Source: Halorussus ruber
Lineage (GTDB): Archaea; Halobacteriota; Halobacteria; Halobacteriales; Haladaptataceae
Length of the DNA stretch: 64,000 nucleotides
Direction of reading: 5' to 3'
NCBI RefSeq assembly: GCF_004765785.1
Contig: NZ_SBIT01000008.1
Coordinates: 1-64,000 of the forward strand
The number at the start of each line of letters is the position of its first letter. Position 1 is the stretch's first letter. Of the stretch, positions 5,975 through 30,376 are shown piece after piece. The notes beneath the pieces were generated by a model, which was not told the DNA's origin, did not search any database, and was given only the letters and a program-made list of their open reading frames with translations. The translations under genes were made by a program, and so were the position numbers.

Positions 5975-6119
5975 CCGGACGATAAGGTAGCGGTGTGGCA
6001 TGACTCTATATTTCTCTTCAAACTATCTAGAAACCCTAAACGAAGGATATTATTGCTCTGTACGAACGTCTCCGCTCGGCAAGACGCCAGCACGCGCTCG
6101 GCGAACCAATCCTCCTCGG

Positions 6120-6244
6120 GTGGATGAAGGGGCCGCGCGCTCGCGGCCGGAGGCCGTGGTCGTCTCAGCGACCACTATCCGCAGGTGAGCGAAGCGAACC
6201 AAGGATATGTCGCTGAGCGACCGCGAGCGGGCGGGGGCTTCAGG
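6120..6244 (+). repeat. Dispersed modular palindromic element, divergent copy
   Basis: This copy shares the inner blocks seen at 33.5 and 42.5 kb: GTCGTCTCAGCG, then a variable core, then GGATATGTCGCTGAG followed by CGACCGCGAG. Its outer ends (GGATGAAGGGGC and GCGGGGGCTTCAGG) are diverged forms of the ends elsewhere. Inner hairpins include GTGGTCG-TCTCAG-CGACCAC and GCCGGAGGC-type stems. The rest of the 399-bp gap between the esterase gene and hisD holds no gene that I recognise. Confidence 0.6.
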
Positions 6245-6373
6245 AGGTGTTCACAACGCAGACCCTCGCGTCGCTGTCGTCGGTCGTTTCGATGCGCGAC
6301 GAGCAGGCGGAGACTTCAGAAGTGTTCTCCCCGAGTAGAAACCGTTTTTCGCCCGCGTCGCAAAGCCTCGCCC

Positions 6374-7648
6374 ATGGAAGTACGCAATCTGGCGGACCTC
6401 GGCCCCGACGAGCGCCGCGCCTTCTTCGACCGCGACGCGGGCATCGAGGAGGTCCGCGAAGACGTGCGCGACATCGTCGCCCGAGTCCGCGAGGAGGGCG
6501 ACGTGGCCGTCCGTGAGTTCTCCGAGGAGTTCGACGGCGTCTCGGTCGGCAACCTCGACATCACCGACGAGGCCGAGCGCGCTTACGACGAGCTGGACGA
6601 CGAGATGCGCGAGACCATCGAGGCCGCCGCACAGAACATCCGCGAGTTCCACGAGGCACAACTCCCCGAGGACTGGACCGAGGAGTTCTCCGCGGGCCGA
6701 GAACTCGGCCGCCGGTTCCGGCCGCTCGAACGCGTCGGCGTCTACGTTCCCGGCGGGGCCGCGGCCTACCCCTCCAGCGCGCTGATGGGCGTGATTCCGG
6801 CGAACGTCGCGGGCGTCGAGCAGGTTGCGGTCGCCACCCCGCCCGCCGAAGAGATGAACCCCGTCACGCTGGCGGCCATCCATGCCGCGGGCGCGGACCG
6901 CGTCTTCAACGTCGGCGGCGCGCAGGGGGTCGCCGCGCTGGCCTACGGCACCGAGCAAATCGACCGCGTCCAGAAAGTCGTCGGCCCGGGCAACAAGTGG
7001 GTCACCGCCGCCAAGGCCGAGGTCCAAGGCGACGTGGCAATCGACTTCCTCGCGGGACCGAGCGAGGTCCTCGTCGTCGCCGACGAGACGGCGGACCCCG
7101 AGTTCGTCGCCGCGGACCTCCTCGCGCAGGCCGAACACGACCCCGAGGCCTCGGTCGTCGCCGTCACCGCCGACGAGGAGACCGCCGAGGCAATCGCCAG
7201 CGAAGTCGAGGCCCAACTCCCCGACCGCGAGCGCGCCGACGTGGCCCGCGAGGCTCTCGACGGCGACGCGAGCGGGGTTCTCCTCGCTCGCTCGCCCAGC
7301 GAGGCCATCCTCTTCGCCGAGGAGTACGCCGCCGAACACCTCTCGATTCAGGCCGACGACGACGAGGAGATTCTCGACCGCATCGACAGCGCCGGGAGCG
7401 TCTTCCTCGGCCCCTACACCCCGGTCGCGGCGGGCGACTACGCCAGCGGGACCAACCACGTCCTGCCGACCAACGGGCTGGCGAAGATTACGGGCGGCCT
7501 CTCGGTCGATACCTTCCTGCGGGAGACCACGGTCCAGCGACTCGACGAGGGCGCGCTGGGGGACTTAGAGGAGACGATTACGACGCTAGCCGAGGCTGAA
7601 GGGCTGGAGGCGCACGCCGAGAGCGTCAGGAAGCGGTTCGAGGACTGA
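6374..7648 (+). CDS. hisD: Histidinol dehydrogenase
   Basis: This 424-aa NAD-dependent, zinc-binding cytosolic enzyme catalyses the last two steps of histidine biosynthesis (L-histidinol to L-histidine). Family motifs are clear in order: YVPGGAAAYPSSALMGVIPA near 122, VVGPGNKWVTAAK near 202, DFLAGPSEVLVVAD near 224, AQAEHDPEA, EEYAAEHLSIQ and SGTNHVLPTNG near 360. Its length is typical. ATG 6374 gives the family N-terminus, and the longer upstream frame runs through the intergenic repeat. It stands alone, as haloarchaeal his genes are scattered. Confidence 0.96.
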   Translation: MEVRNLADLGPDERRAFFDRDAGIEEVREDVRDIVARVREEGDVAVREFSEEFDGVSVGNLDITDEAERAYDELDDEMRETIEAAAQNIREFHEAQLPEDWTEEFSAGRELGRRFRPLERVGVYVPGGAAAYPSSALMGVIPANVAGVEQVAVATPPAEEMNPVTLAAIHAAGADRVFNVGGAQGVAALAYGTEQIDRVQKVVGPGNKWVTAAKAEVQGDVAIDFLAGPSEVLVVADETADPEFVAADLLAQAEHDPEASVVAVTADEETAEAIASEVEAQLPDRERADVAREALDGDASGVLLARSPSEAILFAEEYAAEHLSIQADDDEEILDRIDSAGSVFLGPYTPVAAGDYASGTNHVLPTNGLAKITGGLSVDTFLRETTVQRLDEGALGDLEETITTLAEAEGLEAHAESVRKRFED

Positions 7649-7672
7649 GACTCCGAACACCACCGTCTTGTC

Positions 7673-9061
7673 TTAGCTCACCTGTTCGTCTTCCGGCCGT
7701 GCGGGTGGCTGTTCTCCGTCCGTCTCCTCGTGCGCTCTCCGGGCCTCGACTTCCCGAAGCACGACCGTCGAGACCCGAGCGCCGTCTATCTCGGTGACTT
7801 CGAGGTCGTAGCCGTCGGCTTCGATTCGGTCGCCGACCTCCGGCGCGCGCCCGAGTCGGTCGAGTACCAGTCCGCCGATGGTGTCGAAGTCCGCGACCTC
7901 GAAGTCGGCGTCGAGCGTCTCGTTGACCTCCGAGATGGCGAGTCCGCCGTCCACGGTGTAGGTTCCGTCGCCTCGCCGGTCGATGGACGGTTCGTATTTG
8001 TCCACGTCGAAATCGTCGCGGAGGTCGCCGACGACCACCTCGACGAGGTCCTCGACCGTCACGATGCCCTCGAACGACCCCCACTCGTCGATGACCGCGG
8101 CCATCTGACTCTGCTCGTCCTGAAACTTGGCGAGGAGGTCGTTGACCCGACCGGTCTCGGGGATGACGGCCAAGTCGCGCGCGAGGTCCCCGGCGGTGAC
8201 GGCCTCGTCCGTCCGGTCGGCGGAGTCGTCCGCCGCCAGCACGTCTTTCACGTCCACGAACCCGACCACTTGGTCGCTGTCGTCGGCCTCCACGACCGGG
8301 TAGCGGGTGTGTCCCTCCTCGATTATCAGCGTTCGGAGGTCGGCCAGCGGGAGGTCCGCCGGGGCGCTCACCACGTCCGGGCGCGGAACCATGACCTCTC
8401 GGACGGTGATGTCGTCGAGGTCGAACACGCGCTCTATCATCTCGACCTCGTCCTTGTCGATGTGGCCCTGCTTGCCCGACCGCGTCAGCACCATCAGGAG
8501 TTCCTCCTCTTCGAGGCTCTCCTCGCTCTCGGTCACCGGCGGGACGCCGATGAGTCGCGTGAAGGCGTTCGCCGTGCCGTTGAACACGACGATACCGGGG
8601 ATGAACAGGTAGTAGAAGAACTTCATCGGCGTCGCGGCCAGCAGGGAGACGCGCTCGGCCTGCGCGATGGCTATCGTCTTGGGCGCGAGTTCGCCGAAGA
8701 CGACGTGCAGGAAGGTGATGAAGCCGAATCCGACCGCGAAGGCGACGAGGTGGACGAGGTTCCCCGGAAGAACCGACCCCAAGAAGGGTTCGATGAGCGC
8801 CGCCACGGCCGGTTCGCCGATCCATCCGAGACCCAGCGAGGAGATGGTGATGCCGAGTTGGGTCACCGCGAGGTAGTCGTCCAGATTCTGAATCGCTTCC
8901 TGTAAGGTGGCCGACCCCGCCTTGCCCTCCTCTGCCAGCGTATCGACGGTAGTGGACCTGATTCGCACGAAGGCGAACTCCGTGGCGACGAAGAAGCCGT
9001 TCAGTACGACTAGCAAGAGCGCGAGCAGGACTCGCCCGATAGAGAACGCGAGGTCTACCAT
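7673..9061 (-). CDS. CNNM/CorC-type transporter (hemolysin-family protein)
   Basis: This 462-aa membrane protein has a DUF21/CNNM transmembrane domain (about 1-190, beginning with a helix that ends in NGFFVATEFAFVRIR). A pair of CBS domains follows (about 205-325, with VMVPRPDVV and GHTRYPVVEADD), then a CorC/HlyC C-terminal domain (about 340-430). The family is linked to magnesium or other cation transport or homeostasis, with CBS domains sensing nucleotides. The name hemolysin is historical. It converges with hisD. Confidence 0.88.
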   Translation of the reverse strand: MVDLAFSIGRVLLALLLVVLNGFFVATEFAFVRIRSTTVDTLAEEGKAGSATLQEAIQNLDDYLAVTQLGITISSLGLGWIGEPAVAALIEPFLGSVLPGNLVHLVAFAVGFGFITFLHVVFGELAPKTIAIAQAERVSLLAATPMKFFYYLFIPGIVVFNGTANAFTRLIGVPPVTESEESLEEEELLMVLTRSGKQGHIDKDEVEMIERVFDLDDITVREVMVPRPDVVSAPADLPLADLRTLIIEEGHTRYPVVEADDSDQVVGFVDVKDVLAADDSADRTDEAVTAGDLARDLAVIPETGRVNDLLAKFQDEQSQMAAVIDEWGSFEGIVTVEDLVEVVVGDLRDDFDVDKYEPSIDRRGDGTYTVDGGLAISEVNETLDADFEVADFDTIGGLVLDRLGRAPEVGDRIEADGYDLEVTEIDGARVSTVVLREVEARRAHEETDGEQPPARPEDEQVS

Positions 9062-9200
9062 TCACTCCCTCTGTGCGCAGTCGCGGCGCGGACTGACTCG
9101 ACGGGCGCGTGTTGTCTCATGCTTTCACCTAGCGCTCTCGATGTGATAAGAATGACCCTCTCTGCTCGCGCAAAACGGACTCAAAAGCGTTCGCGTGACC

Positions 9201-9569
9201 TTACGTTCGGAAACTCTCGCCGCATCCGCACTCACTAACCACGTTCGGGTTGTCCACGTGGAAGCCCGCGCCCTGCAGGCCGTCCTCGTAGTCCACGACG
9301 CTTCCCTCGATGTAGTTCATGCTCGCGGGGTCCACGAACACGCGGAGTTCGTGATGCTCGTAGACGGTGTCGTCTTCCTCTGGCTCCTCGTCGAATCGCA
9401 TCCCGTAGGAGAGACCCGCACAGCCGCCCTGCTGGACGAACAACCGGAGTCCGGCGATGTCGGTGTCGAGGTCCTCGCCCTCCAGCAGCGAGAGGGCTTC
9501 GGCGGCGGCGTCCTCCGTCACCTCGATTTTCGGCGTGGGGTCGCCCTCGGGGGCGGTATCGGTACTCAT
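9201..9569 (-). CDS. IscA/ErpA-type iron-sulfur cluster carrier
   Basis: This 122-aa A-type Fe-S carrier delivers clusters to apoproteins in the cytosol. The three ligand cysteines of the family are visible, one in QQGGCAGLSYGM near 50 and two in SECGCGESF at the C-terminus. The acidic N-terminal extension of about 15 residues is typical of haloarchaea. It is a single gene, divergent from nothing obvious and upstream of dodecin on the same strand with a gap of about 100 nt. Confidence 0.93.
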   Translation of the reverse strand: MSTDTAPEGDPTPKIEVTEDAAAEALSLLEGEDLDTDIAGLRLFVQQGGCAGLSYGMRFDEEPEEDDTVYEHHELRVFVDPASMNYIEGSVVDYEDGLQGAGFHVDNPNVVSECGCGESFRT

Positions 9570-9672
9570 ACCTCCCTAGTTTCGGTTCCGGGGTGTTAAC
9601 CTTGGCGCTGGGTAGCGACCCCCGGATACCGACTCCTCGACTCCGAACCGCTCCACGATTCCGAACCGTGAA

Positions 9673-9882
9673 TCACTCCCGCGGCTCTTCCAACTCGAAG
9701 GCCACCGTGACCTCGGCTTGGTACTCGCGGTTCGGCGCGTTGGCGACTTCGACCCCGAGTTCGTCCACTTCCACCCACTTGACGTTGTTCAGCGTCTGTT
9801 CGGCCCGCTCGATGGCGTCGTCCGCGGCGGCGTCGAAGCTCTCCTCGCTCGTCCCGATGAGCGTGATTTTCTTGAAAACCAT
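9673..9882 (-). CDS. Dodecin family flavin-binding protein
   Basis: This 69-aa protein has the dodecin fold signature: [35 protein letters not shown] and [13 protein letters not shown]. Dodecins assemble into hollow dodecamers that store flavins (riboflavin/lumichrome in Halobacterium). The tryptophan that stacks on the flavin is W36. Length and spacing match haloarchaeal homologues. Confidence 0.9.
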
Positions 9883-9957
9883 GGCGCATCAGCGATACCA
9901 CGCAGAGCATCTTAAAGCCAACCGGCGAGAGGAGTCCCGGGCGGGGGTTCGCCGCCC

Positions 9958-10611
9958 TCAGTCCGCGCGGCGCTTGCGCCCGTCGAGGCGGTCGGTGAGC
10001 GCGCCGACCACGTCCGAGAGGTAGGCGGTGCCCCAGACCGCGACCAGCACGCCGCCGACGATGTCGAACATGAGGTCCAGCATCGTGTCTTCGAGGCCGT
10101 ACTGGGTCAGTATCTTGCTACTCCCGAGGAGGGCCGCCAGTCCGCCGACGCCGAACTCGATGACCTCCCAGATGACGCCGAACGCCACGACGAACATGAG
10201 GATGAAGACGAAGGTGAACCGCGGCGGGAAGTAGATGTCCTCGGTGTGGGCGTCGAGCGACCGCGTCGTGGCGTAGCCGATGGCCGCGACCAGCGACGAC
10301 GAGAGCGCGTGGGTCAGGTGGTCCCACCACCAGAACGTGTCGTTGCTGTAGGGTCCGAGGGTGCCGACCGCGTGGAGGAACACCGCGGTCGTAATCCAGA
10401 GGGTGAGACCGGCGTCCATCGGGATGTCGTAGTCGCGTTCGAGCATCGCCGGGAGGAAGGTGACCGCCAAGGCGATGGCGGCGTTGACCACGATGCCGAC
10501 GTTCCCCCGGTCGAGGCCGATGAAGAGGATGCCGACGAGGCTCAACTCCATCGCGCGCGTCAGTTGTCGCTGCCGTTGTGCGGAGATGTGGAGTCGGTCG
10601 CGGAGTTTCAC
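9958..10611 (-). CDS. Conserved haloarchaeal membrane protein (DUF2238/YjdF-like)
   Basis: This 217-aa protein has about five to six membrane helices. It carries histidine- and acid-containing motifs within membrane regions: WWWDHLTHALSSSLVA near 94, GVIWEVIEFG near 150 and DTMLDLMFDIVGG near 178. These resemble the DUF2238/YjdF family of unknown function. Its start overlaps the end of the upstream membrane-protein gene by 4 nt (ATGA), so the two are co-translated. Confidence 0.7.
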   Translation of the reverse strand: MKLRDRLHISAQRQRQLTRAMELSLVGILFIGLDRGNVGIVVNAAIALAVTFLPAMLERDYDIPMDAGLTLWITTAVFLHAVGTLGPYSNDTFWWWDHLTHALSSSLVAAIGYATTRSLDAHTEDIYFPPRFTFVFILMFVVAFGVIWEVIEFGVGGLAALLGSSKILTQYGLEDTMLDLMFDIVGGVLVAVWGTAYLSDVVGALTDRLDGRKRRAD

Positions 10612-11294
10612 GGCTGCTCACCGCGTCCCGTCTCGTTCTGCCCCCTCTCGCTTCGTCCCGCCTCGTTCTGACCGGTCTCGTCGCGTTCGAGCGATTTGCC
10701 GTGGTCGCCGGGGAGTCGCGTCTCGACTCGCGCGAACCGCCGGAAGTACCACTCGAAGACGACCCCCGCCATCCCGCCGATTATCGTGGCGGCCACGAAG
10801 TCCCACATCAGGCGCTCCTCGCTCCGGATGAACGCCGTGCCGAGGTAGACGTCCGAGAGCCACTGGACCACCGCCCAGACGCCCGCGGTGGCGATGGTGG
10901 CGACGACCACGAACAGGACCGCGAACCAGTAGGTCATCTCGACCGGCGTGAAGACGTGGAGTTCGACCGCGACGATGAGCGCCAGCGCGGCCACCGAGAG
11001 GTAGGTCGCGGCCTGCGAGGCGAACACCTCGTTGGCCAGCGCCCGGCCGAGGATGGGGAGCGCCGACAGCGCCAAGACCTCCCACGGGAGCATCACGGTC
11101 CAGTCGCGGTGCGAAATGGAGGGGACCAGCGCGATTCCGGCGACGAACACCGTGAACCCCGCCCAGAGGAGGTGGCCGTCGAGGACCTCCTCGACCGCGA
11201 CGAGCGCGAGAAACGCGACTAGCGCCCACCCGAGTCCGGCGTTGACACGCTCGTCCTCCACGACTCGGTCGAGCGTGCCAGCGCGACGTGCCAT
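10608..11294 (-). CDS. Hypothetical membrane protein
   Basis: This 228-aa protein has about five to six hydrophobic segments between residues 20 and 185. A hydrophilic C-terminal tail follows, made of a degenerate repeat (units of the type GQNEAGRSER and GQNETGRGEQ). It forms a two-gene unit with the downstream membrane protein through a 4-nt stop/start overlap. No function is recognised. Confidence 0.65.
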   Translation of the reverse strand: MARRAGTLDRVVEDERVNAGLGWALVAFLALVAVEEVLDGHLLWAGFTVFVAGIALVPSISHRDWTVMLPWEVLALSALPILGRALANEVFASQAATYLSVAALALIVAVELHVFTPVEMTYWFAVLFVVVATIATAGVWAVVQWLSDVYLGTAFIRSEERLMWDFVAATIIGGMAGVVFEWYFRRFARVETRLPGDHGKSLERDETGQNEAGRSERGQNETGRGEQP

Positions 11295-11370
11295 GTGCGC
11301 TCGTAGACAACCGTCCGATAAGAAAGCACGGGTGACGGGGACGGTCGAGCGTGTCGAGTCCGGAGCGGAA

Positions 11371-12342
11371 TCACGGGAAGGGATACATCACGTAGACCAG
11401 CGTGTAGGTCAGTCCGGCGACGCTGACCGCTGTCAGCCCCGTCATCACCCACGTCACGCCCTCGTCCCACTCCGCGGAAAGGACCGACCGCGAGGGCAGG
11501 AGGTTGGGCGCGACCCCGACCATCCCGACCGCTAGAATCGAGAACACGAAGTGGTACGACACCTCCATCGTCGGCGCGGGCATCGCAATCGCGGCGATGG
11601 CGTAGGCGACCCCGACCGCGGCGCGGGTGTCGATGTGCGCGAACAGTCGCCGGTCGGTCGCCCGGAGGTAGACGTAGCCCGCGAGCCAAATCGTCGCCAG
11701 CTCGACGCCGAACACCGCCAGCAGGTTGAGCGTCGGGTCGGCCAGCAGGACCACGCGCTCGGTCAGAAGTCGAACGTCGAGCGGGTAGAGGAACCGCGGC
11801 GGCGCTCCCGTGAACAGGTCGCCGAAGGGGTGGCTCAGCAGGCCGACCAGCGCGGCGACGACCAGCGCCCGCGGCCCGAGGTCGGTCGCCCGTCGGAGGG
11901 CGAGGGCGATAGCGATGCCCGCCAGCAAGAAGACGAGCATGACCGCGCCGCCGAGAAGGCCGCTCTCGACGAACGCGACGGCCGCGAGTCCGGCCAGCAG
12001 GAGGCCAGCGAGTGGTCGCCCGCGATTCGCTTGCCCGCGGTCCGCGCCGCGGTCAGCCGTGAGGCCCACGAACGCTGGCGCGGCGACGACGCCGACGACC
12101 AGCGAGTGGGTCACCGCGCGGTGGACGAGGTGGGAACTCCCCCAGAACGCGGCGGTCATCTCCCAGACGCCGCCGACCCCGGCCTGCGCGAGGCCGACCA
12201 CCGCGTAGAACATGTCTACGTCCGGTGCGGCCGCGAACGCGCCCGCCGCGATGCCGAACGCCAGCGCGCGCTCTCGGGGCCAGCGCCGGGACGCCACGGC
12301 GGTGGCGATGGCGAACGCCGCCATTGCGTGGCCGACCATCAT
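11371..12342 (-). CDS. DUF457/YdjM-like membrane-bound metal-dependent hydrolase
   Basis: This 323-aa polytopic protein has the histidine/aspartate pattern of the YdjM/DUF457 family. MVGHAMAAFAIA stands at the start, APDVDMFY near 40, HLVHRAVTHSL near 71-81, and LLSHPFGDLFTG near 158. In bacteria such proteins are described as inner-membrane, putatively metal-dependent hydrolases. The substrate is unknown. The gene precedes the two membrane-protein genes on the same strand but is separated by about 76 nt. Confidence 0.75.
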   Translation of the reverse strand: MMVGHAMAAFAIATAVASRRWPRERALAFGIAAGAFAAAPDVDMFYAVVGLAQAGVGGVWEMTAAFWGSSHLVHRAVTHSLVVGVVAAPAFVGLTADRGADRGQANRGRPLAGLLLAGLAAVAFVESGLLGGAVMLVFLLAGIAIALALRRATDLGPRALVVAALVGLLSHPFGDLFTGAPPRFLYPLDVRLLTERVVLLADPTLNLLAVFGVELATIWLAGYVYLRATDRRLFAHIDTRAAVGVAYAIAAIAMPAPTMEVSYHFVFSILAVGMVGVAPNLLPSRSVLSAEWDEGVTWVMTGLTAVSVAGLTYTLVYVMYPFP

Positions 12343-21603: not shown

Positions 21604-21657
21604 CCCCGCAGCGCCTCGACAGGGCGCTACCCCCGCAGCGCCTCGACAGGGCGCTTA
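21604..21657. repeat. 27-bp tandem duplication spanning a stop codon
   Basis: Two near-identical 27-bp units (21604-21630 and 21631-21657) differ only at their last bases. In the minus-strand frame the inner unit encodes KRPVEALRG, the true end of the permease. The second unit begins with the TAG stop where the first has AAG, then repeats RPVEALRG in the now untranslated frame. It reads as a 9-codon duplication in which the stop falls at the duplicated lysine codon. Confidence 0.85.
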
Positions 21658-22751
21658 CTGGAGGCCTTCCAGGCGGGGTAGAGTCCGGCGACGATGCTAG
21701 CGCCGATGCCGAAGGCGAACGCGAGGACCATGTACATGACCGTCGCCGACCGGAAGTCGAAGGGGCCGTCCAGCATCAGGCTGTTGATTCCCATCGTCGC
21801 CAGCAGGCTCAGGGCGACGCCGACGATGGCACCGATTATGCCGAGCAGCATGGCCTCCGCGAGCATGATTCCGAGTACGTCGATGCGCTGGTAGCCCACC
21901 GCGCGGAGGACGCCGATTTCCTCGCGGCGCTCGATTGCGGACATGAGCATCACGTTGGCAATCGAGATGCCCGCCACGAGCAGCGAGATTCCCCCGACGC
22001 CCAGCAGGAACATCCGAATTTGCCGGAACGCCTGGTCGAACTGCTCGGCGAACTTCGAGAAGTCCAGCACGTCCACGCGCTCCTTGCGCTCGTTGAGGTT
22101 CGCGCGAATCTCGTCGGCGAGCGCGCTCGCTTCGCGCGGACTCTCGGTCTTGACGACCAAGTTGTTGTACCCGTCCACGTCGATTTCCCCGGGCGGAACG
22201 ACCACGGCCTCGTTCGGGTTGGCGACGCTGGTCTGACCCTCCTCTTCGAGGACGGCTTGGACGCGATAGGTACGTCCGTCGAGACGAATCGACTGGCCGG
22301 GTTCAATCTCGTGTTTCTCGGCGAACTCCGACCCTACGATTGCGCCCGACCGCCAACTGTCGGGAATCGAACCCTCGCGGATTTGGTACAGGGCCTTGGG
22401 ATTGCCCACGCCCCGAACCGTTACGGTTTCACCGGTCGATTCCAGCTGCCACTGGGCCACCAGTAGCGGGATAACCTCCTTCCCGCTGGCGAGTCGCTCG
22501 ACGTCTCGCCGGTCGCGCTCGTCGAGTAACTGGCCGTTGTCCTCGCCGGGACTGATCAACAATTCGTTGCCGAAGCCGCCGATTGCGTCGGTCTGAGCCT
22601 CCTGAAAGGCCACGCCGAAGCTCCCGAGGCTCGCAATTGCGACCACGCCGATGATAATAGTCAACACGGCGAGGCCGGAGCGGGCCTTCGCCCGCAGGAG
22701 GTTCCGCCGGGCCATGTACGTCCGGGGGAACAGTCGCCGCAACAGGCTCAT
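21627..22751 (-). CDS. MacB/FtsX-like ABC transporter permease
   Basis: This 374-aa protein has one N-terminal membrane helix (about 28-50), an extracellular MacB periplasmic-core-like domain (about 55-245) and an FtsX domain with three helices (about 255-370, including MSAIERREEIGVLRAVGYQR). This is the four-helix type VII ABC architecture, used for mechanotransmission or export of proteins and lipids rather than classic transport. The start overlaps the ATPase stop by 4 nt, so it is co-translated. Its 3' end is affected by a 27-bp tandem duplication. Confidence 0.92.
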   Translation of the reverse strand: MSLLRRLFPRTYMARRNLLRAKARSGLAVLTIIIGVVAIASLGSFGVAFQEAQTDAIGGFGNELLISPGEDNGQLLDERDRRDVERLASGKEVIPLLVAQWQLESTGETVTVRGVGNPKALYQIREGSIPDSWRSGAIVGSEFAEKHEIEPGQSIRLDGRTYRVQAVLEEEGQTSVANPNEAVVVPPGEIDVDGYNNLVVKTESPREASALADEIRANLNERKERVDVLDFSKFAEQFDQAFRQIRMFLLGVGGISLLVAGISIANVMLMSAIERREEIGVLRAVGYQRIDVLGIMLAEAMLLGIIGAIVGVALSLLATMGINSLMLDGPFDFRSATVMYMVLAFAFGIGASIVAGLYPAWKASSKRPVEALRG

Positions 22752-23452
22752 TCGAACACACCTCCACCGACGGCCTCGACCGACGGGGCGTCGGTTCCCA
22801 GTTCCCCGTCGACTAAGTGAAGCACGCGGTCGGCGAAGCTGGCGACGTACTCGTCGTGGGTGACGGTGACGACCGCGACGCCCTCGTCCGTGACGCGGTC
22901 GAACTCGTCGAGTACCCGTTCGCCTGTCTCCCGGTCGAGGTTGCCCGTCGGCTCGTCGGTCAGCAGGACGTCGGGCTCGTTGATGAGCGAACGGGCGATG
23001 GCCACCCGCTGTTTCTGGCCGCCCGAAAGCTCGTCGGGGTAGTGGTCGAGTCGGTCGCCCAAGCCGACCCGTTCGAGCAGGTCGACCGCCCGCTGTTCGG
23101 CCTCGGCGGGATTCCGGTCGAGGAGACACGGGACGACGACGTTCTCGAGGGCGGTGAGCGTGGGAATCAGGTAGTAGCTCTGGAAGACGAAGCCCACGAC
23201 GCTCTTGCGAACGCTCGTTCGTTCGCGGTCGCTGTGGTCCTCGATGTCCTCGCCAGCGACCCGGACGGTCCCCGACGTCGGCGTATCGAGTAGCCCCACC
23301 AGGTTCAGCAGGGTGGACTTGCCGCTGCCCGAGGGGCCGACGATTGCGACGAACTCACCGGCCTCGATTTCGAAGTTCACGCCCTTGAGCGCCCGGACCG
23401 TCTCGCCGCTCTCGTACTCCTTGACGACGTCGGTAGCCTCGACGACCACCAT
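22748..23452 (-). CDS. MacB/LolD-like ABC transporter ATP-binding protein
   Basis: This 234-aa ATPase has Walker A GPSGSGKST at 39-47, signature ELSGGQKQRVAIARSL near 142 and Walker B DVLLTDEPTGNLD near 161, typical of the LolD/MacB group. It powers the FtsX-type permease that follows with a 4-nt overlap. The upstream surface-protein gene ends 2 nt before its start, so all three form one operon. Confidence 0.94.
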   Translation of the reverse strand: MVVVEATDVVKEYESGETVRALKGVNFEIEAGEFVAIVGPSGSGKSTLLNLVGLLDTPTSGTVRVAGEDIEDHSDRERTSVRKSVVGFVFQSYYLIPTLTALENVVVPCLLDRNPAEAEQRAVDLLERVGLGDRLDHYPDELSGGQKQRVAIARSLINEPDVLLTDEPTGNLDRETGERVLDEFDRVTDEGVAVVTVTHDEYVASFADRVLHLVDGELGTDAPSVEAVGGGVFE

Positions 23453-23454
23453 GG

Positions 23455-24945
23455 TTATCGGAGTCGCCGGTAGCTGATTCCGAAGGCGGCTAGCCCGAGG
23501 ACGAGCGCCCCGCCGACTGTTACCGATAGCGGGACTCCACCGTTCTGGTCGCTCGCCGCGCCTTCGTCAGCTTCGTTCCCGCCCGCGTCGTAGCGCACCT
23601 CGGTCGTGGCGGTGTGCTCGACGCCGTCGACGCGGTAGGTCACCGTCAGCGGAATCGTCGTCTCGTTGCCCTCGACTTCGGCGGTGACGGTGAAGGAAGC
23701 GAAGTCACTCTCGGCGACTTCGCCGACGAAGAACTCCGGCTGGGGACCCGTCGGCACGACGTTCTCCGCGTCGCCGACGGCGACGACGACGCTCTGGGCG
23801 TCGACGGTGCCGATGTTGGCGGCGCTCCCCGTGATTTCGACGACATCCGACGACGCGCTGGCGCTGACGCCCGTCAGTTCGATGGCGTCGGCACCGGGTG
23901 CGCCAGCGTACTTGACTTCGGCCGTGGTAGTGCGCTCGACGCCGTCGACGCGGTAGGTCACCGTCAGCGGAATCGTCGCGCCCTCGGTGTCGACGTCTGC
24001 GAGGAGGTCGAACTGAGTGGCGTTGTTCGCGGAAATCGACCCGACGAACGTCTCGGCACCCTCGCCCGAGGCCTCGACACTCGGTGCGTCGCCGACGGCG
24101 ACGACGACGCTCTCGACTTTGCTGTCACCGACGTTCGACGCGGTGCCAGCAATCTTGACGCCGTCGGCAGTCGTCGTGAGGTTGACGTCGGTCAGTCGCA
24201 TCTCGCCGGGGCGGTCGGGTTCGGTGAAGTCCGCCGAGACTGTCTGCTCGACGCGCCGGAGGTCGCCGTTGCGGTCCTCGTAGGTGAGTACGACCTCAAG
24301 GTCGTAGACGCCGGGCGACTCGGGGCGGGCCTCGAAGTCGAACGCGCGCTCCTCGTGGGGCCCAATCGTGGAGGCGACGCGCTCGCGCTCTCGGAACTGC
24401 AGGCCGTCGCCGTCGACCGACACCGACACGCCGTCGACGGACTCGTTGAGGCCGTTGGCGACGGTCAGGTCCACCGTTCGCCACGCGTTCCCGACGGCGG
24501 GTTCGGTATCGACGCTGATGAGCGGGTGCGGCCGGTAGACTTGGACGGTCACCGGAATGGAGACGACCCGGCGGTCGTCGTCGTTGACCAGCACAGCCTC
24601 GGCCCGGAGTTCGTGGAAGCCGGTGTCGTTGATTTCGACCTCGTCGAGCGTGACGGTGCGCTTGGTTCCGGGCATGAACGGCCCGGTAGGGTTGGCCTCG
24701 TCGAGCTCCTCGGCGTCGTCGCCGGGACCGTCGTAGAGGCGAACGTACTCGATTGCGTAGCTATCCTTTCCCCCGTCTGCACTTTCGAGCGTGACTTCGA
24801 CGCTGAACTTCTCGTCGACGGTGGGTTGGTCGGGCTCGACCTCGGCAGTCATCGTGACGAACGTCCCGTCAGCAACGACGCCAGTGACACCACCGCTGGT
24901 TATCAACAGGAGGGCCCATAAGAGAGCGGTGCTGGTTCTAGTCAT
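23455..24945 (-). CDS. Secreted, membrane-anchored protein with CARDB-like repeats
   Basis: This 496-aa protein has a signal peptide (TRTSTALLWALLLITSG), a beta-rich ectodomain and a C-terminal membrane helix ending in RR (ALVLGLAAFGISYRRLR). Two tandem units of about 105 residues near the C-terminal half share the pattern GTASNVGDSKVESVVVAVGD and GSAANIGTVDAQSVVVAVGD, followed by IPLTVTYRVDGVE. Such COG1361/S-layer-like proteins often accompany MacB-type ABC systems in archaea. It likely sits on the outer cell face and works with the ABC pair. ATG 24945 was preferred because it gives a clean signal peptide. Confidence 0.82.
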   Translation of the reverse strand: MTRTSTALLWALLLITSGGVTGVVADGTFVTMTAEVEPDQPTVDEKFSVEVTLESADGGKDSYAIEYVRLYDGPGDDAEELDEANPTGPFMPGTKRTVTLDEVEINDTGFHELRAEAVLVNDDDRRVVSIPVTVQVYRPHPLISVDTEPAVGNAWRTVDLTVANGLNESVDGVSVSVDGDGLQFRERERVASTIGPHEERAFDFEARPESPGVYDLEVVLTYEDRNGDLRRVEQTVSADFTEPDRPGEMRLTDVNLTTTADGVKIAGTASNVGDSKVESVVVAVGDAPSVEASGEGAETFVGSISANNATQFDLLADVDTEGATIPLTVTYRVDGVERTTTAEVKYAGAPGADAIELTGVSASASSDVVEITGSAANIGTVDAQSVVVAVGDAENVVPTGPQPEFFVGEVAESDFASFTVTAEVEGNETTIPLTVTYRVDGVEHTATTEVRYDAGGNEADEGAASDQNGGVPLSVTVGGALVLGLAAFGISYRRLR

Positions 24946-25110
24946 AAATTCTATTGTGTCATATAAAATATGACCGGAATGCAATAAAATAGCTTCGATT
25001 TCTTATTTGTAAATTAAAATTGACAAACGCGCGCCCGTGGCTGTTCCTCCTATCGGTCGAGTACAGCCGTCGTCACGTGGGTTCGCACCGGAGAAACCTA
25101 ACTCAAAAAA

Positions 25111-25140: not shown

Positions 25141-25863
25141 ATGGTAGAAACGAAGTACAGTCGAGCAGCGGGTTTGTTAGGCAACGGGAAACAACTCGGC
25201 TTGGCTGCTGGGCTGATTCTACTCGCAAACGCCGTCACGGTGGTAATCGCGTTGGCGATTACCAATGCGGCCGGTTACCTCCGTCCGACGACCATCATCG
25301 GGATGATTTCGGGCGGGGTCGGGATGACGCTGGTCGGCGGAGTCTACCTCTGGAGGACGGACCGAGGAATCGAGTACGCCGATTTAGCGGTTCCGACTCC
25401 TCGTTCGGTCTCGCTCGGACTCGGGCTCGGCGTCGTCATATTTTCCGTTCAGGCGGCACTCGATTTCGGCGCACGACTGGCGGGTGTCCCGATGGGGTTC
25501 GACCAGGTTGCGATGCAGGTCATCGGCGACCCCCGCCTCTTCGTCACTGCGGCTGTACTTCACTTCCTCGTGGTCGGGCCGTCCGAGGAGTTCTTCTTCA
25601 GAAACGTCGTCCAGAAGCGCCTCACTGAGCGGTTCTCGGCGGCCGGTTCCATCATCGCCGTCAGCCTGCTTTTCGCGCCCCTGCATATCGCAAATTTCGG
25701 TGGTGAATCTACCGTCGCAATCTTGGTGTCCCTTACTGGTGTGTTCCTCGCTTCGGTACTCTACGGAACCGCGTTCGAGAAGTGGCGGCGGCTCGATATT
25801 ATAGCGATTGCGCACGGGGTGAACAACGTGGTGACGCTCGTCGTCATCTCCATCATGGCCTGA
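25141..25863 (+). CDS. CPBP family intramembrane glutamic endopeptidase
   Basis: This 240-aa membrane protein has about six to seven helices. The CPBP (Abi/CAAX-protease-like) catalytic motifs are complete: EExxxR as E149-E150-FFF-R154, the FAPLH motif with H182, and HGVNN with H225 and N229. Members cleave within membranes, and in bacteria many sit in bacteriocin loci as processing or self-immunity factors. Here it precedes a 27-aa membrane peptide, an ABC exporter and a tandem peptide array, so a role in peptide maturation or immunity is the most economical reading. That role is inference. Confidence 0.88.
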   Translation: MVETKYSRAAGLLGNGKQLGLAAGLILLANAVTVVIALAITNAAGYLRPTTIIGMISGGVGMTLVGGVYLWRTDRGIEYADLAVPTPRSVSLGLGLGVVIFSVQAALDFGARLAGVPMGFDQVAMQVIGDPRLFVTAAVLHFLVVGPSEEFFFRNVVQKRLTERFSAAGSIIAVSLLFAPLHIANFGGESTVAILVSLTGVFLASVLYGTAFEKWRRLDIIAIAHGVNNVVTLVVISIMA

Positions 25864-25947
25864 TATCTCCTCAGTTCGGTGGGCGAATCAATCTCCTTTC
25901 TAGCCAGTAATTCAAAAAAATTAAATATTAAACGTAGTAAACTGGTA

Positions 25948-26031
25948 ATGATGAACAAAGAGGACCTGGCGATGTGGATCGGGGTAGTGATCGGCGGGAG
26001 TGCCATGCTCATCGGCTACCTGGTCCTGTAG
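25948..26031 (+). CDS. 27-residue single-span membrane peptide
   Basis: The ORF encodes MMNKEDLAMWIGVVIGG followed by SAMLIGYLVL: a short charged head and one hydrophobic helix with a small-residue GxxxG-like face. Support for expression is the AT-rich TTAAATATTA box centred about 26 nt upstream of the ATG pair (25948/25951). It sits in the short gap between the CPBP protease and the ABC ATPase genes. It may be a peptide substrate, a small transporter subunit or an immunity peptide. No homologue is recognised. Confidence 0.55.
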   Translation: MMNKEDLAMWIGVVIGGSAMLIGYLVL

Positions 26032-26095
26032 GCTCGACCGCCCGACCGTCCCCGAGCAGTTCGTCACAGACAGACGAGACAGACCCAACGTTCCA

Positions 26096-26878
26096 ATGGT
26101 AGAATTCGCTATTCAGACCGAGAACCTCACCAAGCGGTACGGAGACGAGACGGCTGTCGATAGTCTCTCTCTGACCGTCCCCAGCGGCGCAGTGTACGGC
26201 CTGCTGGGACCGAATGGTGCCGGAAAGACGACCACGTTACGGATGCTGACGACGCTCACCGAACCGACGAGCGGCGAGGCCACCGTCGCGGGCGTGCCTA
26301 TCACTAATTGCGTAGGGGTCACCGAGCGCATCGGCTATCTCCCGGCCGAACCGCCGGTCTTCGAGGCGCTCACGGGGCGCGAACAGCTCCGGTACGCTGG
26401 CCGACTACAGGAACTGCCGACGGACGTGGCCACGGAGCGAATCGACTCGCTGCTCGAACAGTTCGACCTCGAAGCGGACGCCGACAGGCGAATCTCGGAT
26501 TACTCGACGGGGATGCGAAAGAAAGTCGGTATCATCGGGACGATTCTCCACGAGCCAGACGTCGTCTTTCTGGACGAACCGACGAGTGGACTCGACCCCC
26601 GAGCCGCCAGGACGGTGCGCGAGATGATCAAACAGTTAACTGAACGGGATACGACGGTCGTCCTCTGTTCGCACGTCCTCCCCGTCGTGGAGGAGATCGC
26701 CGACGTCGTCGGGGTCATCCACGACGGAGAACTGGTCGCCGAAGGGACGCCGACCGAGATTCGTTCCAGCGCGAACTCCGCTCCCGACCTCGAGACGGCG
26801 TTTCTCGACATTACCACGGACGAGGACGAAATCGACAGCGACGCCGACACGCTCGATTACCATGAAAAACCGAGCTAA
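26096..26878 (+). CDS. ABC transporter ATP-binding protein of the peptide locus
   Basis: This 260-aa ATPase has Walker A GPNGAGKT at 38-45, a divergent signature (DYSTGMRKKVGI, where LSGGQ is usual) and Walker B DVVFLDEPTSGLD. This is the CcmA/NatA-like class that serves ABC-2 exporters and bacteriocin self-protection pumps. ATG 26096 gives the family N-terminus VEFAIQTENLTKRYG. It overlaps the next gene by 17 nt, indicating translational coupling with the permease. Confidence 0.92.
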   Translation: MVEFAIQTENLTKRYGDETAVDSLSLTVPSGAVYGLLGPNGAGKTTTLRMLTTLTEPTSGEATVAGVPITNCVGVTERIGYLPAEPPVFEALTGREQLRYAGRLQELPTDVATERIDSLLEQFDLEADADRRISDYSTGMRKKVGIIGTILHEPDVVFLDEPTSGLDPRAARTVREMIKQLTERDTTVVLCSHVLPVVEEIADVVGVIHDGELVAEGTPTEIRSSANSAPDLETAFLDITTDEDEIDSDADTLDYHEKPS

Positions 26879-28508
26879 TCGTAAGCGTGGGTCGACGCGG
26901 CACGGACGGTTTCCGGACCCTCGGACCAGCGCGTCGATTGCACACGTCGAGTTGCGTCAGCGCATTCGGTCGCGGAGCAACAACGCCTGGATGTTCTTCC
27001 TCGCGCTCATACTCGCTGGCTTCAGTTTCGTGGTCTTCGATTTGGGACGCGAACTCGCACCCGGGAACGGCGAGTGGCAATCCTACGTCGCTCCGGTGTT
27101 CGTTCTCGGACTCCTTGGAATCATAGTGTACCAGGGACTGAACGGGGTGGGCCTCGCTCCGACGAACAAGTCCTGGTTGCTCACGGTTCGACCACCGAAA
27201 GACGTCATGGGCGGGCAACTACTGTTCCGGTTCTGCGAGACGTTGCTCGGCGCACTCGCCCCGACGGTGGCGTTCTTTCTCGGTCTCTCTCTCACTATTG
27301 GTTCGCCGCTGCCACTGTTGGGCGGCGTTGCCGTAGCGCTCCTCGTCAACGCCGTCGGGACAGTCATCGGACATCCTCTCGGACTGTGGTTGAAAGGAAT
27401 CTACAAACGGCACGGCATCTCCCGAAAGGTTGTCGTAATCGTCGGCATTCCGTTGGCCGTCGGTTACGCCGCGTTCCTGTACACTGGCGGCATCGCCGTC
27501 GCAATCGAGCGACTCCAGCCCGTCGTCGTGAACTCGCCGCTGGGGTGGATAGAGGACCTCGCTCTGGTGACGACTCCTGGGTCCGGAGCGAGAGCGAGTC
27601 GTGCTGCAGCGTTACTCCTCGGTTCGGTCGTGTTTTCGGCTATCGCCACGTTCGGTGCGGTTCGTATCAGTGTGTACACGTGGTACGCCGACGGTTCTTC
27701 CCAGGACGGCGACGAGACGCCAACCGACGACCAGTCCTCGACGGAACCGCTTCTCGGACAGGTGCTTCGGGTCGGTCCGCTCTCGGAGGGGACACGTGGC
27801 GTCGCAACGGCGTCGATACGCCGGACGTACCGGTCCGGACACGTCTTGGTACTCGTCCTCGGACTACTCCTCGTGGCCGGAGTTCCGGTGGCCGAACAGA
27901 TCATCACGACCGGGAAGGCCCCCCGGTACACGCCGTGGATCGTACTGTTTTACGGCGTGAGTCTCGCTGGCTCCTTCCACTCCCTCAACATCCTCGGCGT
28001 TCAGGGGAAGACGCTTCCGCTCGTCCTTACTGCGCGGGTGACCGGTCGGCAGTTCGTAAACGGCCACGTCGTCGCCGGGACGGCGGCGTTAGCGCCGATT
28101 GCGACCGTCCTGGTCGTCGCCTCCGGAATCGCTGCCCGATGGACTGTCTTCGAGATTGTTCTCGCCGGGGCGCTTTCGCCGCTTGCTGTTTGTCTGGGAG
28201 CGATGGTGGCGACCGGAATCGGAACGCGCCTGCCCCGATACCGCTCTCCTTCGGTCCATCGAAGTAGCGGGGTGATTCGACCGGACAAGGTCGCTACAGT
28301 CTCCTACTCGGTGTGGTGTTCGGTCACTCTCTTTGTGTTGTTCGTACTCGTCGATGCTAAGCTACGGTACGCTCTCGCCAGCGTTACTGGTCTCTCCGAG
28401 GCGCTGTACGCCGTGTCGGCACTCGCGGGACTCGCCGTGGTCGGACTCAGTGCGATTGTCTCGTACCGGTCCGCGGTTGCCCGTGTCAGCGAATATCGAC
28501 TCGACTAG
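26862..28508 (+). CDS. Large polytopic ABC-type permease of the peptide locus
   Basis: This 548-aa protein starts with a basic, soluble N-terminus (about 45 residues) and then has about 11-12 hydrophobic helices in two blocks separated by a polar stretch near 285-305. It resembles ABC-2-like exporters in which both halves are fused. The start lies inside the ATPase gene (17-nt overlap), so the pair should form one exporter. The tandem peptide genes lie 190 bp downstream, making them the obvious candidate cargo. I recognise no specific subfamily. Confidence 0.75.
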   Translation: MKNRANRKRGSTRHGRFPDPRTSASIAHVELRQRIRSRSNNAWMFFLALILAGFSFVVFDLGRELAPGNGEWQSYVAPVFVLGLLGIIVYQGLNGVGLAPTNKSWLLTVRPPKDVMGGQLLFRFCETLLGALAPTVAFFLGLSLTIGSPLPLLGGVAVALLVNAVGTVIGHPLGLWLKGIYKRHGISRKVVVIVGIPLAVGYAAFLYTGGIAVAIERLQPVVVNSPLGWIEDLALVTTPGSGARASRAAALLLGSVVFSAIATFGAVRISVYTWYADGSSQDGDETPTDDQSSTEPLLGQVLRVGPLSEGTRGVATASIRRTYRSGHVLVLVLGLLLVAGVPVAEQIITTGKAPRYTPWIVLFYGVSLAGSFHSLNILGVQGKTLPLVLTARVTGRQFVNGHVVAGTAALAPIATVLVVASGIAARWTVFEIVLAGALSPLAVCLGAMVATGIGTRLPRYRSPSVHRSSGVIRPDKVATVSYSVWCSVTLFVLFVLVDAKLRYALASVTGLSEALYAVSALAGLAVVGLSAIVSYRSAVARVSEYRLD

Positions 28509-28626
28509 AATCGGCACGTATGCGTCGACTGTCTGCTATATTTGGCACGTCCGACGTCGAGAACGGGAGAAGGCACTTCTGCGCTTACTTTTCCTATTTT
28601 AATAAATATAAATTAAAATAGATAAT

Positions 28627-28687
28627 TTTATAATACTGTATGAAATATGGTAGGATAGATGGTCCCGAAGAGCAGCGGGACCATCTA
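28627..28687 (+). promoter_or_regulatory. Promoter and 5'-terminal hairpin of the peptide array
   Basis: AT-rich sequence with TTTATAATA centred near 28631 predicts a transcription start near 28657. Exactly there begins a perfect 11-bp stem, TAGATGGTCCC (28656-28666) pairing with GGGACCATCTA (28677-28687), around the loop GAAGAGCAGC. The mRNA would thus open with a hairpin, leaving about 13 nt before the ATG at 28701. A 5'-terminal stem can stabilise a message or gate translation. A protein-binding site is an alternative. Confidence 0.55.
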
Positions 28688-28700
28688 GGAAAGAGAAACC

Positions 28701-28784
28701 ATGAACACGAACTGTCCCGCATGCTTCGTCGCAGGCGCCATCATCGGCGGCGGCGGCGTCGCTGCCATCTACCTGGCGACGTAA
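28701..28784 (+). CDS. Tandem small CxxC peptide 1
   Basis: The ORF encodes 27 residues beginning MNTNCPACFVAGAIIGGGG, with a CPAC motif right after a short MNTN head and a Gly/Ala/Ile-rich hydrophobic tail. It is the most divergent member of a four-gene array but keeps the MNTN start and the CxxC. It is the first gene after the hairpin leader. The small size, hydrophobic helix with small residues, and clustering with an ABC exporter and a CPBP protease suggest a secreted or membrane-active peptide such as a microhalocin. Function is inferred. Confidence 0.6.
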   Translation: MNTNCPACFVAGAIIGGGGVAAIYLAT

Positions 28785-28818
28785 CGCTAGCTAACCGACG
28801 ACCTTTCAACAGTCAATC

Positions 28819-28920
28819 ATGAACACGAACGCTTGTCTTCCGTGCGCGGCTGCGCTCATCAAGGGTGCTGCCGTCGGTGCGGGTATCGTCGGTGGCGCCA
28901 TCGCGGCTGCCAATTACTAA
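28819..28920 (+). CDS. Tandem small CxxC peptide 2
   Basis: The ORF encodes 33 residues. The first 16, MNTNACLPCAAALIKG, are identical in peptides 3 and 4, and a Gly/Ala/Val-rich tail (AAVGAGIVGGAIAAANY) follows. CLPC could bind metal, form a disulfide or be a modification site. The 34-nt spacer before it contains CTAGCTAACC and CCTTTCAAC, repeated before peptide 3. No Shine-Dalgarno sequence is seen. Conservation across copies at both protein and DNA level is the main evidence that it is coding. Confidence 0.68.
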   Translation: MNTNACLPCAAALIKGAAVGAGIVGGAIAAANY

Positions 28921-28962
28921 GGCGCATCACTAGCTAACCAACCTTTCAACTCGACACGAAGC

Positions 28963-29064
28963 ATGAACACGAACGCTTGTCTTCCGTGCGCGGCTGCGCT
29001 CATCAAGGGTGCTGCAGCCGGTGCGACCATCGTCGGTGCCGCCATCGCTGCCTACGAAGCGTAA
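28963..29064 (+). CDS. Tandem small CxxC peptide 3
   Basis: This 33-residue paralogue of peptide 2 has the same 16-residue N-terminal block and the tail AAAGATIVGAAIAAYEA. The first 48 nt are identical to peptide 2, while the C-terminal half differs by substitutions that keep small and hydrophobic residues. It lies 42 bp after peptide 2. The tail has GxxxG-like spacing suited to helix packing in membranes. Confidence 0.68.
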   Translation: MNTNACLPCAAALIKGAAAGATIVGAAIAAYEA

Positions 29065-29117
29065 GGGCGCACCAGAAGGTATCGTTCGCCAACTAACCAT
29101 TCAACCCAACGCTAAAC

Positions 29118-29219
29118 ATGAACACGAACGCCTGTCTTCCGTGCGCGGCTGCGCTCATCAAGGGTATTGGTGCCGGTGCGACCATCGTCGGTGCCGCCAT
29201 CGCTGCCTACGAAGCGTAA
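29118..29219 (+). CDS. Tandem small CxxC peptide 4
   Basis: This 33-residue paralogue differs from peptide 3 only at residues 17-19 (IGA for AAA after the KG). One synonymous change (GCC for GCT at codon 5) separates its first 48 nt from those of peptides 2 and 3. The downstream sequence repeats the spacer after peptide 3 (ACCAGAAGGTATCGTTCGC-like). A run of five T at 29252-29256 may mark the transcript end. It is the last copy of the array. Confidence 0.68.
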   Translation: MNTNACLPCAAALIKGIGAGATIVGAAIAAYEA

Positions 29220-29369
29220 GGCCGTACCAGAGGGTATCGTTCGCTAACCACTTTTTCAGGTATCGTCGGACGGAGACGTCCAGCGAGGAGCCTACTAGTT
29301 GGCCACAGTCGGCGATTCCGACGGGTACTCACTACCTCCGGAGAAGAAAGCCACCTCGAACTCGCGTCG

Positions 29370-29528
29370 CTACATCAGGACAACGAGGGCACCCAGCACT
29401 ATACTCCCGATCATCAGCGGGCGCCACTCTCCGGTCGTACCAGCGTAGTACGCGGCACCCGCGACGTAGATGATTCCTACGACGAGAAGACCGAGATACG
29501 CCGTGGTGTAGAGGTCGAATTGGGTCAT
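29370..29528 (-). CDS. 52-residue membrane protein next to the peptide array
   Basis: The ORF encodes MTQFDLYTTAYLGLLVVGII and a second hydrophobic span ending in LVVLM, with a short polar loop (TTGEWRP) between: two membrane helices in a hairpin. A purine-rich GAGGAG lies just upstream of the ATG. It converges on the peptide array and follows the Yip1-like gene on the same strand. Its size and location fit an immunity protein, but no homologue is recognised. The 239-bp gap between it and the next gene appears empty. Confidence 0.6.
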   Translation of the reverse strand: MTQFDLYTTAYLGLLVVGIIYVAGAAYYAGTTGEWRPLMIGSIVLGALVVLM

Positions 29529-29767
29529 CGATTTCTCTCCTCTTTTCTCACTTATGTCGTCTCGAATAAAAAACTTAGGGACCAAGACGGTGACGGTTCG
29601 GTCGCTTCGGGGCTGGCCTCCCGGTCGTGAGACGCCGACCACCACACTCGCCGTCGGCCAGTGTCGAGCGACCGGACGACATCGAACACGCGAAAGCAGA
29701 CGGCGCGTCTCGCCGACGGACGGATTCGATTGGCTGGCGACGCGAAGGAGGGCGACGTGTCTTTTGC

Positions 29768-30376
29768 TCAGGCACCGACCAAGAGATACCACATCACCGC
29801 GAGGAGAACGACGACGGGGCCAGCGACGATAGCAAACGCCCGCTTCTGTGACACGTCGTGTACCGACTGGACCGCGACTGCCCAAATGTCGGCACTCCAG
29901 ACGAGAAACGCGAGAAATAGGTACCCGACCGCGACAATCCTCCAATCGTTCGACAGCGCCGTCTGGGTGGCCTCGGCTGCCGAAGTCGGTGCCGACAGGT
30001 CGTTCACCACGACCATCGTCACGGCGAAACTGACGAGCGACCCGAGCGCGTACGGAACCATCCCGTACGCAGTCAACTGCAAGAGTCGCTTGAACGAGGC
30101 GTCACTCTCGTAGACTACGGTGGCGATGCCGTGGAAGCACGCCGTCACGAGGACCCACACGAGAATGGGGAGACCGCCGGAGACCAAGCCGGTGAGTACG
30201 TAGAGGATGGTCATGTTCATCTCCGTGTTCGAGAACTGCCAGTTGATGACGTAGATGTCGTTGACCACCGAAATCAAAGCCGTGAGCAGCACGATGGCTC
30301 CGGGGACCGCGAACCCGCTCGACGTCCGTCGGTCGAAGAACGATTCCGTGTCTCTGAATAGTTCTACACCTACCAT
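29768..30376 (-). CDS. Yip1-like integral membrane protein
   Basis: This 202-aa protein has about five hydrophobic helices. The layout (short polar N-terminus VELFRDTESFFDRRT, then closely packed spans, with GMVPYALGSLVSFAVTMVVV around the middle, read in parts) resembles the Yip1 superfamily found widely in haloarchaea beside ABC exporters. ATG 30376 was preferred to one 48 nt upstream because an AT-rich promoter lies in that interval. It may help secretion of, or tolerance to, the neighbouring peptides. Confidence 0.65.
   Translation of the reverse strand: MVGVELFRDTESFFDRRTSSGFAVPGAIVLLTALISVVNDIYVINWQFSNTEMNMTILYVLTGLVSGGLPILVWVLVTACFHGIATVVYESDASFKRLLQLTAYGMVPYALGSLVSFAVTMVVVNDLSAPTSAAEATQTALSNDWRIVAVGYLFLAFLVWSADIWAVAVQSVHDVSQKRAFAIVAGPVVVLLAVMWYLLVGA

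Follow-up and report, generated by a model that had tools for sequence, protein, structure and literature searches.

A gene cluster of the haloarchaeon Halorussus ruber, contained in a 64,000-nucleotide stretch of contig NZ_SBIT01000008.1 (hereafter the window), probably encodes a leaderless two-cysteine glycine-zipper halocin-like system, in which antagonistic peptides would be paired with dedicated export and self-protection. Four tandem genes for short peptides (A to D) lie on the same strand as genes for a CPBP protease, a 27-amino-acid membrane peptide and an ATP-binding cassette (ABC) ATPase with its permease, and this plus-strand unit is flanked by minus-strand genes for a Yip1-family protein and for a CARDB-ATPase-MacB set. 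On the defining features tested, the locus matches no described family; from its sequence it is best classed as a bacteriocin-like peptide locus outside the named families. When the CPBP, permease and Yip1 genes were each traced to their own relatives without use of the peptides, each one pointed independently to further loci that hold small Cys/Gly/Ala-rich peptides or halocin C8, and the cluster appears to be built from parts that recur beside other haloarchaeal antimicrobial-peptide genes.

The four small peptides

Peptides A to D all begin with MNTN, followed by a CxxC motif (CPAC or CLPC) and a hydrophobic Gly/Ala-rich stretch, and the four tandem small CxxC peptides named in a first-pass annotation of the window were recovered with starts at 28701, 28819, 28963 and 29118. 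Each peptide has two cysteines, a grand average of hydropathy (GRAVY) of 1.1-1.2 and a Gly+Ala content of 41-48%. Codon scores of the four open reading frames (ORFs) ranged from 7.7 to 13.0 in the annotated frame and from -25.6 to +1.5 in the other five frames. The ORFs of peptides B, C and D are each 102 nt long including the stop codon, with spacers of 34, 42 and 53 nt and a repeat unit of 144-155 bp; a fixed ORF length of 33 amino acids combined with varying spacers is as expected for coding duplicates. ColabFold, run on the peptide alignment, predicted a single helix spanning residues 6-31 with moderate confidence (pLDDT 68).

The peptides matched no library family, and a homology search of 392 Halobacteria genomes at E values up to 1 gave no convincing foreign match, the best (E = 0.012) lying inside a larger open frame; this sample was drawn evenly from the larger group, and the absence holds for the sampled genomes. 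Nor were homologues found outside the host genome among 28 genomes of its family. Widespread peptide homologues without the CPBP or exporter genes, which had been named beforehand as an observation that would count against a peptide-system reading, were thus not seen in either sample.

Small CPxCG zinc proteins are numerous in haloarchaea, and CPAC and CLPC look like redox or metal-binding motifs, so that the peptides might be read as tiny CxxC redox or metal-binding proteins with no role in antagonism. However, a single CxxC followed by a hydrophobic Gly/Ala helix is not the pattern of a zinc finger, neither Pfam nor NCBIfam returned a protein of this type, and we consider this explanation very improbable.

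A hairpin at 28657-28688, for which Rfam gave no match, follows an AT-rich TATA-like stretch, precedes peptide A and is presumed to be either a 5' leader RNA or a palindromic operator of the array. Two AT-rich 28-nt stretches, one at 24999-25026 upstream of the divergent CARDB and CPBP genes and the other at 28598-28625 upstream of the peptide array, are 75% identical to each other and possibly represent a shared regulatory element.

Organization and extent of the locus

The features of the locus, in order of position, are as follows.
21627..22751, minus strand, MacB/FtsX-type ABC permease, YknZ-like (PF12704, 4e-21; PF02687, 7e-18)
22748..23452, minus strand, MacB-type ABC ATPase, YknY-like (ORF, with homologues in relatives)
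23455..24945, minus strand, CARDB-like protein, predicted secreted or anchored (N-terminal signal-like and C-terminal hydrophobic spans)
25141..25863, plus strand, CPBP (Rce1-like) intramembrane glutamic protease (PF02517, 7e-15)
25948..26031, plus strand, 27-amino-acid single-span membrane peptide (codon score 19, hydrophobic span)
26096..26878, plus strand, ABC ATPase of the putative peptide transporter (PF00005, 2.7e-29)
26862..28508, plus strand, 548-amino-acid permease with 11-12 spans, partner of the ATPase (hydropathy, pairing with the ATPase)
28657..28688, plus strand, perfect 12-bp-stem hairpin (z = -5.1 for 28632-28705)
28701..28784, plus strand, peptide A, 27 amino acids, MNTNCPACFVAGAIIGGGGVAAIYLAT (codon score, hydropathy)
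28819..28920, plus strand, peptide B, 33 amino acids, CLPC and Gly/Ala helix
28963..29064, plus strand, peptide C, 33 amino acids
29118..29219, plus strand, peptide D, 33 amino acids
29370..29528, minus strand, 52-amino-acid small membrane protein, candidate immunity protein (hydropathy)
29768..30376, minus strand, YknW-like membrane protein of the Yip1 family, candidate for a role in immunity or assembly (PF04893, 1e-18)

The first-pass annotation had bounded the locus at 25141-30376. The features that it placed there were found, including the 52-amino-acid and Yip1-like proteins on the minus strand, the CPBP protease with an intact active site and the coupled ABC ATPase and permease, whose ORFs overlap by 17 bases. 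Its extent was too narrow: the flanking MacB-type genes had been missed, and the functional unit probably extends left to about 21627. It is because of these flanking transporter genes that the Yip1 protein becomes interpretable. Two other details needed tempering, in that the "12-helix-type" permease showed 11 clear spans in a hydropathy scan, and is therefore called 11-12, and the promoter assigned to the 27-amino-acid peptide, the ORF of which was confirmed, is an AT-rich TATA-like stretch upstream that we retain as putative. The G+C content is 0.55-0.63 in the locus, compared with up to 0.69 on its flanks, and neither the CPBP gene nor the peptides were found in 17 congeners; because of both observations, the locus fits an acquired accessory cluster. 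A PLSDB search for near matches returned a single match (5%), to unrelated genes.

Small membrane proteins often adjoin transporters, and the lack of a leader on peptides A to D, together with the position of the 27-amino-acid peptide between CPBP and ATPase, would suit peptides that stay in the producer, where they would regulate the ABC transporter or answer envelope stress. We regard such a role as quite unlikely: a regulatory subunit would not usually be present as four tandem copies sharing a conserved CxxC block, and the surrounding gene families recur by antimicrobial precursors elsewhere.

Relatives of the accessory genes

The window CPBP protein retains all three active-site motifs of PF02517 (EEFFFR, FAPLH and HGVNN, corresponding to EExxxR and two His motifs). 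The search for relatives covered the 392 genomes, the 125 genomes of the family to which the closest relative's host belongs and a GTDB r220 scan. The only close one, from Natronolimnohabitans innermongolicus JCM 12255 (locus L134), is 48% identical (runner-up, 37%) and has in common with the window protein the N-terminus MVETxYSRAA; a contig scan with the CPBP pair returned N. innermongolicus only. Locus L134 contains tandem Gly/Ala-rich ORFs of 38 and 39 amino acids about 1 kb (within 1.3 kb) from the CPBP gene, one of them with a Cx5C motif, and also encodes a 71-amino-acid two-span protein. L255, L256 and L258 also have CPBP genes, ~5 kb away from halocin C8 genes; the encoded proteins are longer, and these cases were left out of the supporting evidence.

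The Yip1 protein scored below the curated cut-off of the NCBIfam model NF052650 (YknW_fam), at 1.8e-9 and 37 of 110 bits. In four loci (L206, L213, L215 and L217) Yip1, CARDB, ATPase and MacB form a single operon with Yip1 first, and the window preserves this order of transcription on its minus strand, except that the 52-amino-acid gene and the plus-strand peptide unit separate Yip1 from the other three. By its gene order the arrangement resembles a peptide operon inserted into a YknWXYZ-like gene set. In congeners as well as in the four Yip1 operons, the ATPase-MacB pair comes after a CARDB homologue, and homologues of the left-flank ATPase (56-68% identity) sit between CARDB and MacB genes in relatives. 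The CARDB-like protein, which gave no Pfam match, probably stands in place of the adaptor YknX. Ahead of the CARDB operons of the congeneric loci L175 and L176 are 59-amino-acid small membrane proteins, possible counterparts of the 52-amino-acid protein.

The two best Yip1 relatives by E value outside the host genome, L174 (same genus) and L204 (another family), belong to operons that comprise Yip1, a YydG/EpeE-like radical SAM protein (8.6e-21 and 2.7e-33, respectively), an ABC ATPase, a permease and a precursor. The precursors are 168 or 177 amino acids long and end in CTAVAVC or CSAVAAC (Cx5C) and an Ala/Val/Gly stretch; these archaeal EpeX/YydF-like operons are located at 2078-8345 of L174 (G402) and 5086-10048 of L204 (G073). 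In three further loci (L208, 7654-10731; L216, 6394-8440; L218, 6592-8400) Yip1 adjoins SpoIIM (DUF95) and hydrophobic proteins of 92-112 amino acids, Gly/Ala-rich in L208 and L218, in clusters that resemble those of circular bacteriocins.

The inner permease had no Pfam or NCBIfam relative, a PDB profile search with its family likewise gave no match, and neither did a contig scan with the permease as query; a single-sequence structure prediction was unusable (pLDDT 42). Its family was present in 264 of the 392 genomes, with the ATPase-permease pairing kept in most homologous loci. Because the family is common and usually away from such peptides, the ABC pair alone is not diagnostic, and it is therefore by its peptides that the locus is defined. 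One relative, in L069 (G116:C3), has two precursors directly upstream, which contain LCPHVCGAYVGAGFAAGAAAG and LCPPVCLGYGAGAFVAGYGA, with CPHVC and CPPVC motifs and Gly-rich stretches, and an SdpB-like gene nearby (TIGR04033, 1.6e-4). A neighbouring gene in the same region (L069, 5944-11284) has a weak DUF5819 match and is a possible SdpA counterpart. A tree of the permeases places the window and L069 members as the two earliest branches of one subfamily and halocin C8-linked members on other long branches; this suggests that one exporter family was repeatedly recruited to peptide loci, but does not establish one orthologous system.

Locus L180, found via its Yip1 gene, holds together (5480-12314; G397) a Yip1 gene, an ATPase-permease pair whose permease belongs to the same family as that of the window, and a Cys-rich gene with a halocin C8 model score exceeding the curated cut-off. 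Because of this finding, halocin C8 regions were surveyed: the permease family occurred in 8 of 40 halocin C8-domain regions and in 0 of 20 random regions (Fisher p = 0.043), figures that are indicative because the surveyed genomes are related. A rough genome-average expectation, assuming 1.5 copies per positive genome, is 0.004 family members per region. Elsewhere in the host genome lies a gene with a halocin C8 domain (G000:C4:335915-336112; L246, L278; 6.6e-7).

A uniform scan for two cysteines with a Gly/Ala-rich stretch, covering 1.30 Mb of haloarchaeal DNA in which some fetched loci overlapped, matched only the window, L069, L134, L174, L204 and the halocin C8-type precursor of L180, apart from two apparently false matches whose Cys patterns resemble those of zinc fingers. 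That the cluster consists of chance neighbours, in which an ABC pair for housekeeping and an unrelated CPBP gene happen to adjoin a spurious duplicated ORF, would accord with a permease family that is common and mostly not peptide-linked, and with the ability of repeats to yield parallel ORFs. The codon scores, the constant ORF length with variable spacers and the convergent context of the three accessory genes all argue against coincidence, which we judge highly unlikely.

The first-pass annotation had proposed a microhalocin-like or signalling locus, and the comparative context of CPBP, permease and Yip1 supports a peptide locus of this kind well, though the ABC pair by itself is not diagnostic. 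The signalling alternative is the main rival: the peptides would be secreted pheromones whose release needs CPBP cleavage and ABC export, the four near-identical genes raising the dose. Small peptide pheromone systems have the same parts list, and near-identical tandem copies fit a dosage effect. Against this, the examined genes next to the array include no receptor kinase or dedicated response regulator, the neighbouring TrmB is recognised by the model of the haloarchaeal sugar regulator (NF047392), peptides this hydrophobic would make poor diffusible signals, and the context relatives are toxin-like (EpeX-like, SdpB-linked and halocin C8). We therefore consider a signalling function unlikely.

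Comparison with known systems

The likeness to SDP of Bacillus lies in a short hydrophobic peptide with one Cys pair, in Yip1, ATPase and MacB-like permease genes nearby, and in the SdpB-like gene at the related locus L069. SDP, however, is cut from a longer SdpC precursor in a process needing SdpAB, whereas the window peptides are 27-33 amino acids long without a leader, and no NCBIfam match to the Sdp toxin, SdpA or SdpB was obtained for CPBP, the ABC pair, peptides A and B, the 52-amino-acid protein, Yip1 or TrmB (MacB, CARDB and the far-left ATPase were scanned with Pfam only). In Bacillus, YknWXYZ, of which YknW is a Yip1-family protein, protects against SDP, a 42-amino-acid peptide with a single disulfide (PMC4887032). 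The window has a MacB-like permease corresponding to YknZ (PF12704 and PF02687) and no membrane-fusion adaptor YknX; because the CARDB protein replaces YknX, the flanking set is YknWXYZ-like and not a member by every feature, and it is accompanied by CPBP and a separate ABC pair.

A membrane protease, an ABC pair and a small hydrophobic peptide recall the EpeX/YydF system, as do the Yip1 relatives in YydG-like operons, but the epipeptide precursor is unrelated by sequence to the window peptides and no YydG-type radical SAM epimerase was found among the scanned genes of 21.6-31.8 kb. Halocin C8 is likewise a haloarchaeal peptide, and relatives of the window permease adjoin its domain genes; it is, however, a Cys-rich domain that ends a long precursor, whereas the window peptides have two cysteines and no leader, and peptides A and B gave no match to the halocin C8 model TIGR04449 in NCBIfam. 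Leaderless and two-peptide class II bacteriocins likewise act on membranes, are small, leaderless or of glycine-zipper type, and have dedicated ABC transporters, and CPBP-type immunity proteins occur in some bacterial bacteriocin loci; the window peptides differ in being archaeal, two-cysteine and Gly/Ala-dominated, with no sequence relation shown. The SpoIIM-family partner of circular (DUF95/SpoIIM) bacteriocins was not found among the scanned window genes. A phage-defence role was not favoured, as PADLOC gave only generic ATPase and LolE/FtsX-type matches.

Proposed mechanism

We infer export, disulfide formation, membrane insertion, antagonism and immunity as the steps of the system. The four near-neutral, hydrophobic, two-cysteine peptides would be made without a cleaved leader and carried out of the cytoplasm by the dedicated ABC ATPase-permease. 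Outside the cell, the CxxC pair would close to a disulfide, and the Gly/Ala-rich helix would enter neighbouring haloarchaeal membranes via glycine-zipper packing and dissipate ion gradients, as SDP does in Bacillus. Yip1 and the MacB-type transporter would provide self-protection by expelling peptide from the producer membrane, possibly assisted by the 52- and 27-amino-acid membrane proteins, and CPBP may trim the peptides in the membrane or serve as an immunity protein, as has been proposed for CPBP proteins of bacterial bacteriocin loci. In the epipeptide system, the ABC transporter EpeAB gives partial self-resistance (PMC7614699). Because of this and of the protection that YknWXYZ gives against SDP, the flanking set is assigned to self-protection and the inner ATPase-permease to export; the two roles could be reversed.

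Several observations weigh against this antagonistic reading. The immunity conferred by EpeAB makes the export role of the inner pair ambiguous, and the peptides have no recognised export leader. The peptides are not homologous across loci, the link between them being composition, Cys motif and context. In L134, peptide a lacks cysteine and the nearby ABC genes are from a different family, and the L069 permease has no adjacent ATPase. Permease-family members lie mostly near housekeeping genes (for example, an apparent methionyl-tRNA synthetase gene), as do several Yip1-family members. Finally, the colinearity with the YknWXYZ-like operon is one of gene order, and the insertion breaks co-transcription.

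Significance

How archaea fight or signal by small peptides is poorly known. If the antagonistic reading is true, the locus would offer four short, synthesizable candidate peptides with adjacent candidate exporter and immunity genes, so that killing, export and protection would be separately testable. Yip1 genes beside MacB-type or ABC genes are suggested as anchors for mining haloarchaeal peptide systems that peptide homology searches would miss. More tentatively, and with clear doubt, the locus may represent a modular haloarchaeal toxin class, a counterpart of the Bacillus cannibalism toxins, in which leaderless two-cysteine glycine-zipper peptides would be secreted by dedicated ABC transporters and countered by YknWXYZ-like sets, with interchangeable CPBP, SdpB-like or YydG-like maturation modules around one membrane-inserting core.

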